Positions 2,847-27,367 of a stretch of DNA of 30,894 bases are shown piece by piece. Each line of letters begins with the position of its first letter. The first letter of the stretch is position 1. The stretch covers positions 1 to 30,894 of IMG/VR virus record IMGVR_UViG_3300047445_000182; one strand, given 5' to 3'. Source of the DNA: a virus. A model generated the notes under the pieces. That model saw nothing but the letters and a program-made list of their open reading frames with translations, made no database searches and had not been told where the DNA came from. Both the position numbers and the translations under genes were made by a program.

Positions 2847-3424
2847 CGCCGAAAGTCCAGATCACCGCTGGCGAGCGCCAGTTGCAGCGGATCCTGGCCG
2901 TGATCCGCAGCGAAGCGTTGTCGGTGCGCGACATTGCCGGCAAGGTCCACCTGAGCGAGTCGGCGGTGCTGCGCCATGTGGCCGCCCTGCGCGCCGCGAA
3001 ACGCGCCTACGTGGCCGGGTTCCGTCCCAGCGCGGGCAACACCAAGCCGACCAAGCTGGTCCGCGCCGGCCACCGGCCGGACGCCGTGTACCGCGTCAAG
3101 AGCCGCAAGCGCCCGTGCCGCAAGGACGCCCACCGAAAACGCATGCGCGAGCTGCTGGCGCTGCCGCAAACCAGCGAGGCGCTGGCCGCACGGATGGGCC
3201 TGAGCATCACCCGGACCCGCACCTTCATTGCCGAGCTGCGCGCCGCCAAGATCGCGTGCATCGTCGACTGGCAGCTGCCGCCCACCAAGGGCAGCCAGGC
3301 CCCGGTGTACGCGCTGGGCAGCGGTCCCGACAAGCCGCGCCAGCGCCGCATGCCGCGCGTGCTCGTCAGCCGCCGCCCCAGCATCAGCGCATGGGCGGCC
3401 GGGTTCGGCGTGGGGGCACCATGA
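2843..3424 (+). CDS. Tandem winged-helix-like DNA-binding protein (193 aa)
   Basis: Residues about 10-75 form a winged-helix pattern: GERQLQRILAVIRSEALSVR, then DIAGKVHLSESAVLRHVAAL as helix-turn-recognition-helix, then a wing ending in AVYRVK. Residues about 95-155 repeat the plan: MRELLALPQTSEALAARMGL, SITRTRTFIAELRAAK, a wing ending in APVYAL. The two halves look like an internal duplication. The C-terminus is basic. Translation is coupled to the genes on both sides (ATGA overlaps). A transcriptional regulator of early or late phage genes is plausible; no target can be named. Confidence 0.65.
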   Translation: MTPKVQITAGERQLQRILAVIRSEALSVRDIAGKVHLSESAVLRHVAALRAAKRAYVAGFRPSAGNTKPTKLVRAGHRPDAVYRVKSRKRPCRKDAHRKRMRELLALPQTSEALAARMGLSITRTRTFIAELRAAKIACIVDWQLPPTKGSQAPVYALGSGPDKPRQRRMPRVLVSRRPSISAWAAGFGVGAP

Positions 3425-5882: not shown

Positions 5883-6039
5883 GCCCGAGACCGACCAGGA
5901 ACCGCACCAGCCCACCGCCACCGAGCAGGCCAAGATGAGCCTCCACGCCCAGCGCGCCAAGCAGCTGGAGGCCAGCCGCGTCTTGCTGCTGGCGGGCAGC
6001 CTGGCACGCGAAGCGGCCGAGCCACAGGAGGAAATGTGA
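5875..6039 (+). CDS. Hypothetical phage protein (54 aa)
   Basis: It begins MNKPETDQEPHQPTATEQAK and continues as one predicted amphipathic helix (SLHAQRAKQLEASRVLLLAG). GGGAG sits 6 nt upstream of the ATG. It overlaps the end of the membrane gene in another frame. Its 3' end carries AGGAGG (6026-6031), the shared ribosome site for the two overlapping genes that follow. Confidence 0.6.
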   Translation: MNKPETDQEPHQPTATEQAKMSLHAQRAKQLEASRVLLLAGSLAREAAEPQEEM

Positions 6040-6797
6040 ATGGCCTGGACCATCAGCAGGGCCATGCTGGCGGCCTACGAGAACTCGAACTGTTCGCGGG
6101 CGCAGGAGGCGGCATCCTCGGCAGTCACTTGCTCGGCCACCGTACCGTCTGCGCTGTCGAGTACAACGCCTACGCCAGATCAGTATTACTGGCCCGACAA
6201 AACGACGGAACATTCCCGCCTTTCCCGATTTGGGATGACGTGCGTACCTTTGACGGCAAGCCGTGGCGAGGACTTGTTGACGTGGTTTCGGGCGGGTTTC
6301 CCTGCCAGGACATCAGCATCGGCGGTGCGGGCGATGGGCTGGACGGAGAGCGCAGCGGATTATGGGAAGAACAGCGCCGCATTGTTGGCGAGATTCGACC
6401 CCGTTACGTCCGCATTGAAAACAGTCCAATGCTCACTGTTCGAGGACTCGACCGCGTGCTCGCTGACCTTGCCGCCCTGGGGTTCGATGCGGAATGGGGC
6501 GTGCTATCTGCGGCCGATACCGGTGCACCCCATCTGCGCGAGCGAATCTGGATATTGGCCCACGCCCGTTGCGAGCATGAGCAAAGGGTCATCCAAGGCA
6601 TCGCTTACCCGCAAGAGTGGGCGCGACCGTTCCAAGGACAGATTGGACCATGCAATCATGGCTTCGGAAGGTGGCCAACTGAACGCGGAATGGTGCGAGT
6701 GGATGATGGGGTGGCCCATCGGGCAGACCGACTTAAAGCCATTGGCAACGGCCAGGTTCCAAGAGTGGCTGCGGCAGCATGGCGGCTCCTGGCATGA
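6036..6797 (+). CDS. dcm: DNA (cytosine-5) methyltransferase
   Basis: A 253-residue C5 methyltransferase that would methylate phage DNA against host restriction. Motif I LFAGAGGG is at 19-26 (SAM binding), motif IV GFPCQ at 87-91 with catalytic Cys90, motif VI ENS at 128-130 (ENV is usual), motif VIII RERIW at 168-172, and a final motif AIGNGQVP near 235-242. The target recognition region is very short (about 60 residues). The start is GTG at 6036, only 4 nt after AGGAGG and overlapping the upstream stop, which suggests reinitiation. The entire gene is overlapped in the +1 frame by a second 253-codon gene at 6040-6801; see the finding. Confidence 0.9.
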   Translation: MNGLDHQQGHAGGLRELELFAGAGGGILGSHLLGHRTVCAVEYNAYARSVLLARQNDGTFPPFPIWDDVRTFDGKPWRGLVDVVSGGFPCQDISIGGAGDGLDGERSGLWEEQRRIVGEIRPRYVRIENSPMLTVRGLDRVLADLAALGFDAEWGVLSAADTGAPHLRERIWILAHARCEHEQRVIQGIAYPQEWARPFQGQIGPCNHGFGRWPTERGMVRVDDGVAHRADRLKAIGNGQVPRVAAAAWRLLA

Positions 6798-6801
6798 CTA
6801 G
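6040..6801 (+). CDS. +1-frame gene fully overlapping the methyltransferase
   Basis: A second 253-residue reading frame starts 4 nt after and ends 4 nt after the methyltransferase. Its ATG is 8 nt from AGGAGG, the better spacing of the two starts. The protein has the features of a phage family I recognise from methyltransferase loci: MAWTISRAMLAAYENSNCS at the start, SRLSRFGMT at 59-67, LLTWFRAGFPARTSAS at 79-94, RFDPVTSALKTVQCSLF around 118-134, PPWGSMRNGAC near 145-155, GYWPTP at 171-176, and WCEWMMGWPIGQTDLKPL at 218-235. AGFPARTS is encoded by the same bases as catalytic motif GFPCQDIS. Function unknown. The retention of family motifs throughout argues that it is translated. Confidence 0.75.
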   Translation: MAWTISRAMLAAYENSNCSRAQEAASSAVTCSATVPSALSSTTPTPDQYYWPDKTTEHSRLSRFGMTCVPLTASRGEDLLTWFRAGFPARTSASAVRAMGWTESAADYGKNSAALLARFDPVTSALKTVQCSLFEDSTACSLTLPPWGSMRNGACYLRPIPVHPICASESGYWPTPVASMSKGSSKASLTRKSGRDRSKDRLDHAIMASEGGQLNAEWCEWMMGWPIGQTDLKPLATARFQEWLRQHGGSWHD

Positions 6802-25372: not shown

Positions 25373-27367
25373 ATGCCATTCGACGTTCAAGGGGCGCGCG
25401 CAGCCGGCTATACGGACAAGGAAATTGCCGACCATCTGGCGGGCGAAGCCAAGTTCGACCTGGCCGGAGCGCGCAAGGCCGGCTATTCCGACAGCGAGAT
25501 CATCGGCCATCTGAGCGCTGCCAAGGCGGCGCCGAGTACTGCCGACCAGATCCCGGTATCGGTCATGGAGCGCGAATTTGCCGCCCGTCAGACGCCCGCT
25601 GCTACCAAGCCGGCCGACCCAACGCTGGTCGGCAAGATCCTCGGGGCCGGGGAAACGGCGGCCTCGCTGGCGTCCGGCATCGTGGGCGGCACCTTGGGTG
25701 CCATCGGCGGCACCGTGGGCGGCTTGGCGGGCGCGGTGGCCACTGGCGAATTCGGCACCCCGCAGGCGGCGCGCCAGGTCGAGCAGGCGGCCGGCGAAGG
25801 CATGGGAGGGCTGACCTATGCGCCGCGCACCGAAGCGGGGCGCGAACAAACCGAAGCAGTCGGCAGCGCGATGGCGGCCACGCTGCCAATCGTGCCGCTG
25901 ACGGCCGAAGTCGGCGCCTTGGGGCGTGGTGCGGCCGGCGCAGCCGGGGCGGCACGCGACCTGTCGGCAGGCACGGCGGCGCGGGTCGGCACGGCGGCCA
26001 CCACTGCAGTGGAGCGGCTCCGGCAAGCCTCGCCCGAGATCGCGGCGCGGGTGCAGCGCACGCTCGGACGCCATCCCGAGCCGACCCCCGGCTCGGCGGG
26101 CAGCGTGGGCGCGGCCGGTACCGACATGGCCACCCAACGCCACGCCTTGGCCGATTCGCTGCCGGTGCCGGTGGAATTGACGGCGGGCGAGGCCTCGCGC
26201 GACCCGCTCCAGATGCGCTTCGAGAACGAGGCCGGCAAGCAGGAAGTCGGGGCACCACTGCGCGAACGGGCGCTCGACACCAACAAGAAAATTGGCCAGA
26301 ACTTCGACAACTACGTCGACCAGACCGGCACCACCACCACCGACAAGACCGAAGCGGCCAAGTCGGCGGTCAACGTGATCCGCAAGGAAGCGGCGCGCGA
26401 CAAGGCCGAGATCCGGGTGGCCTACACCAACGCCGAGAAGTCGGCCGAAGGCGTGGCCCCGGTCCAACTCGATGGCGTGGTCGACTTCCTCAACGAATCG
26501 GCCCCCGACCAGGCGGTGTCGAAGGTGCTGGAAGCGGCCCGCAAACGTGCCATTCAGCTCGGCATCGCGGCAGAGGACGAGGCCGGCAATCTGGTGCCGA
26601 TGGATACCACCGTCAAGAATGCCGAACGATTCCGGCGCGCGATTGGCGAGGCCACCGACTACGAGCCGACCAACATCCGCAACGCGGCGATGATGAAGGG
26701 GCTGATCGACAGCCAGACCGAAGCCGTGGCCGGGCCGCTGTACCGCACTGCGCGCCGGCTGCGCGAGAACTACGCCAACAAGTACGAAAACCGCGCCGTG
26801 ATCGGCGACCTGGTCGAGAACAAGCGCGGCAGCAAGGATCGCAAGGTGGCGCTGGAACACGTGTTCGACCGCGCCATCCTGAATGGCGACCGCGCCGAGC
26901 TGTCGCATCTGCGCGCGGTGCTCCAGACGGCCGGCGAAGAAGGCAAGCAGGCGTGGAAAGACTTGCAGGGCACCACCGCCCAATGGCTCAAGGACGAGGC
27001 TTTCAAGAACTCGGCCACCGACGCCACCGGGGCGCCGATTGCCAGCTATGCGCGCCTGAAAACCGCCATCGACAAGCTGGAGCGCGGCAAGCGGCTTGAC
27101 TTCATCTTCGGCAAGCAGGGGGCGCAACAGGTGCGCGACTTGGCCGAAGTGGTCAGCTACGTCAAGACCGCGCCGCCCGGCTTCATCAACAGCAGCAATA
27201 CCGCGTCGACGATCCTGGCGGCCTTGGGCGAGGCCGGTGCCACCGGGGCCTTGACCGGCATCCCGGTGCCAGTGCTGTCGCTGATGCGCCTGCTGGCCAA
27301 GCAAGCCAAGAACCGCGCCCTCGAAAAACGCATCACGCAGGCGCTGCACCCGCGCCGCCAATCGTAA
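25373..27367 (+). CDS. DNA ejection protein (P22 gp16-like)
   Basis: A 664-residue protein in the gp16 position (P22 gp16 is 609). Residues 3-47 are two 25-residue repeats: FDVQGARAAGYTDKEIADHL and FDLAGARKAGYSDSEIIGHL. Residues about 80-125 form a glycine-zipper hydrophobic stretch (AASLASGIVGGTLGAIGGTV and following) that could insert into membrane. A long helical body follows, with DLQGTTAQWLKDEAFK and a final GNAT-free helical segment ending ITQALHPRRQS. P22 gp16 can cross membranes after ejection; the glycine-zipper fits such a role. It starts 3 bp after the gp20-like stop. Confidence 0.8.
   Translation: MPFDVQGARAAGYTDKEIADHLAGEAKFDLAGARKAGYSDSEIIGHLSAAKAAPSTADQIPVSVMEREFAARQTPAATKPADPTLVGKILGAGETAASLASGIVGGTLGAIGGTVGGLAGAVATGEFGTPQAARQVEQAAGEGMGGLTYAPRTEAGREQTEAVGSAMAATLPIVPLTAEVGALGRGAAGAAGAARDLSAGTAARVGTAATTAVERLRQASPEIAARVQRTLGRHPEPTPGSAGSVGAAGTDMATQRHALADSLPVPVELTAGEASRDPLQMRFENEAGKQEVGAPLRERALDTNKKIGQNFDNYVDQTGTTTTDKTEAAKSAVNVIRKEAARDKAEIRVAYTNAEKSAEGVAPVQLDGVVDFLNESAPDQAVSKVLEAARKRAIQLGIAAEDEAGNLVPMDTTVKNAERFRRAIGEATDYEPTNIRNAAMMKGLIDSQTEAVAGPLYRTARRLRENYANKYENRAVIGDLVENKRGSKDRKVALEHVFDRAILNGDRAELSHLRAVLQTAGEEGKQAWKDLQGTTAQWLKDEAFKNSATDATGAPIASYARLKTAIDKLERGKRLDFIFGKQGAQQVRDLAEVVSYVKTAPPGFINSSNTASTILAALGEAGATGALTGIPVPVLSLMRLLAKQAKNRALEKRITQALHPRRQS

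Follow-up and report, generated by a model that had tools for sequence, protein, structure and literature searches.

Tailed phages very probably overlay the catalytic and the target-recognising halves of one DNA-methylating enzyme on the same stretch of DNA, and the annotations examined here overlook one half. The case in point lies in a window of 30,894 nucleotides (the whole stretch of DNA that was analysed), in which a C5 cytosine methyltransferase gene is covered along its length by a second reading frame. With high confidence, the locus can be read as a heterodimeric C5 methyltransferase, in which a subunit for catalysis (alpha) and a subunit for recognition that also carries motif IX (beta) are nested from start to stop.

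Two reading frames and one ribosome-binding site

The window is a tailed-phage record, the locus being preceded by primosomal and helicase-loader-like genes and followed by genes for terminase, portal (phrog_156), head protein and head-closure Hc3. (The structural region also contains, at 25373–27367, a 664-aa ORF without any PHROG match.) Both frames are on the forward strand. The alpha frame (frame 0) runs from a GTG at 6036 to a TGA at 6797 and encodes 253 aa, while the beta frame (+1) runs from an ATG at 6040 to a TAG at 6801 and likewise encodes 253 aa. Alpha is a C5 cytosine methyltransferase, as judged from its matches to Pfam PF00145 (E 5e-29, above the gathering score) and phrog_363 (E 1e-63). 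Beta matched no family in Pfam or NCBIfam, and matches phrog_1008, which is labelled ‘DNA methyltransferase’.

The starts of the two frames are interlocked within the sequence GTGAATGG (6036–6043), which comprises the alpha GTG at 6036, a beta-frame TGA at 6037–6039 and the beta ATG at 6040. Upstream lies a Shine-Dalgarno sequence common to both, AGGAGG at 6026–6031, 4 nt 5' of the alpha GTG and 8 nt 5' of the beta ATG. In the homologs its end is most often found 4–5 nt before the alpha start, which is often GTG or TTG in the window's clade, and hence 8–9 nt before that of beta. It is probable from this spacing that one Shine-Dalgarno sequence feeds both subunits; in other words, a single site would serve two starts 4 nt apart, such that alpha and beta would be made from the same mRNA.

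A preliminary description of this DNA had reported two complete 253-codon ORFs with one AGGAGG over 6036–6801, and the coordinates, lengths and Shine-Dalgarno sequence are all confirmed. It had also drawn attention to the frames starting 4 nt apart and ending 4 nt apart. In this regard the start offset is a conserved feature, since the distance from the alpha start to the beta ATG is exactly 4 nt, with the in-frame TGA immediately before it, in 131 of the 172 members of the window's clade. The end offset is not, given that the stop-to-stop distance varies from about −16 to +20 nt among the homologs and is exactly −4 in only six of the 172, and the equal length of alpha and beta is therefore a coincidence.

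Purifying selection on the second frame

A total of 52 phage records contain homologs of the second frame. The loci collected by searching with one or the other protein, or taken from phage records, number 212 and include species genomes; all of them have both frames, in 211 cases in the same phase. Co-occurrence on its own is weak evidence, as the conservation of a methyltransferase will itself produce a look-alike +1 frame as a shadow, and it could be that conserved methyltransferase residues together with codon bias give an open, similar-looking frame from which nothing is made. Synonymous codons were therefore shuffled gene by gene. The shadow effect is indeed a large one, since genes of the closest group retain a score of ~196 bits with the second-frame profile even after shuffling, such that motif similarity alone proves nothing; the real genes of this group, however, score 387 bits. 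More widely, the score exceeds that of all 60 synonymous shuffles in 346 of 348 phage genes and, where only genes left out of profile building are considered, in 190 of 192. Open +1 runs are ~245–275 aa in real genes as against ~110–118 aa after shuffling, that is, about twice as long. For the window itself, the +1 frame over the methyltransferase region has one stop and a longest open run of 251, whereas 500 shuffles gave 6.4 ± 1.6 stops (minimum 3) and a mean longest run of 91 (maximum 183); with both values lying beyond all 500 shuffles, the frame is more open than chance would allow. Cellular C5 methyltransferases show no such frame, their +1 stops being at the shuffle number (for example 12 versus 12.4, and 7 versus 7.8) and their profile score at about zero.

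Selection was assessed over 99 independent locus pairs, from the ratio (SN/SS) of changes that are silent in the methyltransferase and alter the second frame to those that are silent in both. This ratio is 0.34 (0.30–0.39) in the beta frame, as against 0.96 (0.78–1.25) when the corresponding frame of 37 flanking genes is used, and is a family-level figure, the window's own pairs containing only 1–6 doubly synonymous changes and being underpowered for that locus. The methyltransferase frame's own ratio in these pairs is 0.17. For changes that create stops in the beta frame, the rate is 0.22 times that of SN changes, compared with 0.86 in the flanking genes. A +2-frame control with the profile was likewise in excess; this is to be expected, as beta constrains the wobble base of alpha, and reliance is therefore placed on the stops, the flanking genes, the cellular methyltransferases and the locus L465.

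L465 amounts to a natural experiment. In this locus motifs I–VIII and X are followed, in the same frame, by the variable module and motif IX that are otherwise found at the C-terminus of beta (see below), giving a permuted order, and its C-terminal end can be aligned with that of beta in L210 and in L007. Here the +1 frame over alpha has decayed to neutrality, with 14 stops (14.5 ± 1.7 in shuffled sequences) and a profile score of 16.4 bits (14.4 ± 7.2 shuffled). The N-terminal part of beta is absent from L465 altogether. This pattern is as expected if the module serves the methyltransferase and the N-terminus of beta is needed only for holding two chains together. L465 is a single metagenomic contig, and a repeat search returned the same contig alone. 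Taken with the comparisons to shuffled and cellular genes, and already disfavoured by the selection test, a +1 frame that is open without a product can be given hardly any credence.

A scan for TPTTKANY, a motif specific to beta, with every match listed, yielded 85 ORFs: 82 overlie alpha, a further one is L465 with its fusion, and the remaining two are short and chance-like. An earlier unbiased scan had used WVEWLMGFP, which is also shaped by the conserved bases of alpha, and TPTTKANY is for this reason the better means of finding free copies. The beta family thus sits on methyltransferase genes almost without exception. The second frame is a genuine gene on which purifying selection acts in its own right, and the preliminary description, which had taken it for one, is borne out both by the dual-frame selection analysis and by the coincidence of the two sets of loci.

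Division of the methyltransferase motifs between two frames

The annotated alpha frame contains motifs I–VIII and motif X, which are connected by a variable linker, and is without motif IX. Motif I (LFAGAGGG, 6090–6113), motif VI (ENS, 6417–6425) and motif VIII (RERIWI, 6537–6554) fall on invariant columns of alignment A2, in which motif X (GNGQVP, 6744–6761) and the catalytic GFPCQ of motif IV (6294–6308) are also located; from the same bases as the latter, beta reads AGFPAR. The invariant residues in this alignment are F20, G24–26, PCQ 89–91, EN 128–129, R168/R170 and N238/Q240. Pfam and HHalign matches to alpha stop after motif VIII. The AlphaFold2 (AF2) model of alpha (pLDDT 76.1) superposes on M.HhaI with a VIA-align Z of 22.1 and an rmsd of 2.8 over 196 residues, with model residue 253 mapping to HhaI 319, and its pLDDT falls below 50 at residues 188–192 and 194–231. 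Alpha is accordingly predicted to fold as the large domain of HhaI without the small domain, and with a disordered linker (residues 188–231, 6597–6728) that results from reading the beta module and motif IX in the alpha frame.

What alpha lacks appears to be encoded at the C-terminus of beta. In the window this consists of a PTP-headed variable module (WPTPVASMSKGSS..., 6556–6678) and then the pattern LNxxWxEWMMGWP (LNAEWCEWMMGWP, 6679–6717), and in relatives the second frame terminates in LNPxWVEWLMGFPxGWT. The key to these sequences is provided by two relatives, L440 and L367, that are single chains. In L440 the equivalent LNPDWVEWLMGYP immediately precedes motif X and is in frame with it. 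The IX–X segment aligns without gaps to M.HhaI 270–318; the conditional E of 2.7e-4 is modest, and the match relies on its being colinear with a strong one at the N-terminal side (Pfam covers 2–322 of 324). L367 has everything in a single frame, motifs I–VIII as well as PTP-headed modules and motifs IX and X. From these two relatives, the C-terminus of beta can be assigned as the target-recognition (TRD) region and motif IX; motif IX is, by this motif assignment, on the second polypeptide rather than on alpha. Profile–profile comparison of beta with canonical methyltransferases picks out motif IX, at an E of 0.49 that is not significant alone, a search of the beta profile against PDB sequences gave chance matches only, and the AF2 model of beta alone is poor (pLDDT 53.7).

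The PTP-headed module is proposed to be a target-recognition module from its position between motifs VIII and IX, from its likeness to L367 and from a census of such modules; it varies among betas, and the alpha linker at the TRD position is the part predicted to be disordered. Many betas contain tandem PTP-headed modules of ~30–40 aa, which are met again next to varying neighbours (for example L001 1501–2397 and L038 2124–3506). These tandem modules are candidates for exchangeable recognition modules, and each may act as a separate TRD. The N-terminal part of beta (about residues 1–172, 6040–6555), which lies over motifs I–VIII of alpha, is of a different nature: its ~165–172 residues are without counterpart in the single-chain L367 and L440, as in the fusion L465, and are proposed to bind alpha.

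In the heterodimer reading, therefore, frame 0 (6036–6797) would provide the catalytic subunit with motifs I–VIII and X, and the +1 frame (6040–6801) would provide a subunit that brings the target-recognition module and motif IX. With both frames translated, the C-terminal module of beta would dock on alpha where single-chain enzymes have their small domain and would pick the target cytosine site, while the overprinted N-terminus of beta probably keeps it on alpha. Activity would then depend on beta, and specificity would reside in it. The most likely use for the phage would be methylation of its own DNA against host restriction.

Two further explanations need to be weighed against the heterodimer. 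In the first, which is in line with the preliminary description, beta would be an independent anti-restriction or regulatory protein that arose by overprinting, and not a part of the methyltransferase. The overprinted N-terminal ~165 residues are in keeping with this, as is the lack of a Pfam or NCBIfam match. However, the C-terminus is made up of motif IX and TRD-like modules that are missing in alpha and in one frame in the single-chain relatives, the module also occurs fused to a methyltransferase (L465), and phrog_1008, to which beta matches, extends over motif X too, all of which makes an independent protein improbable. The joint action of the two products, which the same description had envisaged, is very likely, albeit as two subunits of one enzyme; protection from restriction may be their joint role.

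The second explanation is that programmed frameshifting joins the beta C-terminus to alpha as a single chain, with no separate subunit. It draws on the position of motif IX, which lies in the +1 frame between motifs VIII and X of frame 0, such that two shifts would restore the canonical order. These shifts would, however, have to be opposite ones. Moreover, a stop in the beta frame is followed by a conserved ATG that belongs to beta itself, at a suitable distance from the Shine-Dalgarno sequence, and the N-terminus of beta, useless to a frameshifted product, is conserved as well (alignment A3). Frameshifting is on this account highly improbable, and the heterodimer is the reading followed below.

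Origin, known systems and annotation

Among the non-redundant alpha genes, 326 of 379 have motif X in alpha and motif IX in the +1 frame, and where loci were found by methyltransferase motifs alone 79 of 124 are fully nested and 14 more have motif IX in the +1 frame. The beta frame carries motif X as well in L038, L055, L363, L273 and L276. In the window's clade beta and alpha start at about the same place; in distant clades the start of beta mostly falls near codon 50–65 of alpha. The alpha tree (FastTree) is weakly resolved and gave no polarity among single-chain, split and nested states, its only supported placement being that of L465 within the window's clade (SH-like 96).

The preliminary description had suggested that the whole partner family may have been born by overprinting. 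This holds for the N-terminal ~165 residues only, because the C-terminus of beta is old methyltransferase sequence, namely the enzyme's own TRD region and motif IX in another frame; overprinting thus explains parts of the locus, the N-terminus of beta and the linker of alpha. The overprinting is in fact reciprocal, in that the N-terminal ~165 codons of beta lie over motifs I–VIII of alpha and the VIII–X linker of alpha lies over the beta module. On balance, it seems reasonable to regard this as a common tailed-phage arrangement, in which both subunits have been written over each other in two frames, each inventing its extra part on the coding sequence of the other, with beta extended upstream stepwise (from near alpha codon 55–65, as in distant clades, to alpha codon 2, as in the window's clade) and with exchangeable recognition modules. 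Mosaic ORFs that join alpha and beta parts in one frame occur in L346, L208, L391, L467 and L006 and may be frameshifts, sequencing errors or real swaps. In L607 and L641 a second methyltransferase-like ORF (profile 76–258) lies ~1–1.8 kb upstream of the alpha/beta pair.

Multispecific C5 methyltransferases of Bacillus phages (SPR, phi3T) have several recognition modules in their variable region, as do many betas with their several PTP-headed modules, although SPR and phi3T are single chains. M.HhaI is also a single chain and shares the large-domain fold of alpha; its TRD and motif IX are in that one chain, unlike in alpha, where beta supplies the missing motif. In M.EcoHK31I the beta subunit is reportedly encoded inside alpha in another frame. 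As summarised in PMC3404938, M.EcoHK31I (YGGCCR) is a two-polypeptide C5 methyltransferase (Lee, Kam and Shaw 1995) with motifs I–VIII and X in its large subunit, motif IX on the small one and a TRD predicted in the large subunit. As far as that summary goes, the window's enzyme divides its motifs in the same way, here from sequence only, and its kind is therefore already known; the likeness is one of motif division, and the window differs in having TRD-like modules in beta, in being from a phage, in its start-to-stop nesting and in its shared Shine-Dalgarno sequence. M.AquI (CYCGRG) has motifs I–VIII in alpha and the distal variable region, IX and X in beta (PMC3404938), which resembles the five relatives with motif X in beta and differs from the window, where alpha itself has motif X and is overlapped by beta over almost its full length. 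The ShiLan out-of-frame HNH insertion in mycobacteriophage methylases (PMC11855218) is a similar case of a phage methylase gene with a second gene concealed in a different frame, but this is an inserted homing endonuclease, whereas the second frame here would be the methylase's own other half; a homing-endonuclease reading of the second frame was considered and rejected. The open-access literature searched contained no prior report of the phage breadth, the start-to-stop nesting or the in-frame fusion, which is far from proof of absence; the features that look new are the wide occurrence in phages, the start region common to both frames and the reciprocal overprinting.

In the 17 same-strand records, only alpha is annotated in 12, only beta in five (L003, L004, L571, L572 and L573) and both in none. 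With databases listing one frame, phage C5 methyltransferases that are cloned or modelled from it would miss half of the enzyme. Moreover, the loci provide hundreds of examples of a dual-coded enzyme in single-chain, tandem-fused, partly overlapping and fully nested states, such that the origin, persistence and separation of overlapping genes become testable. Recognition modules in beta, if indeed present, would account for quick changes of phage methylation specificity.

Individual records contain some further features. In Stenotrophomonas phage SOVA965 (L572, 684–1184) it is the beta frame that is annotated ‘DNA-cytosine methyltransferase’, with alpha unannotated. L186 (at about 3228–3230) and L527, from a Microvirga genome, have a CAG to TAG change within the catalytic PCQ of alpha, which is synonymous in the beta frame, and beta stays open over its full length. 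In E. coli PCP07014 (L567, 601–1362), PGAP calls alpha a pseudogene with an internal stop, and beta is likewise interrupted by a stop, at almost the same position, such that both halves are broken together.
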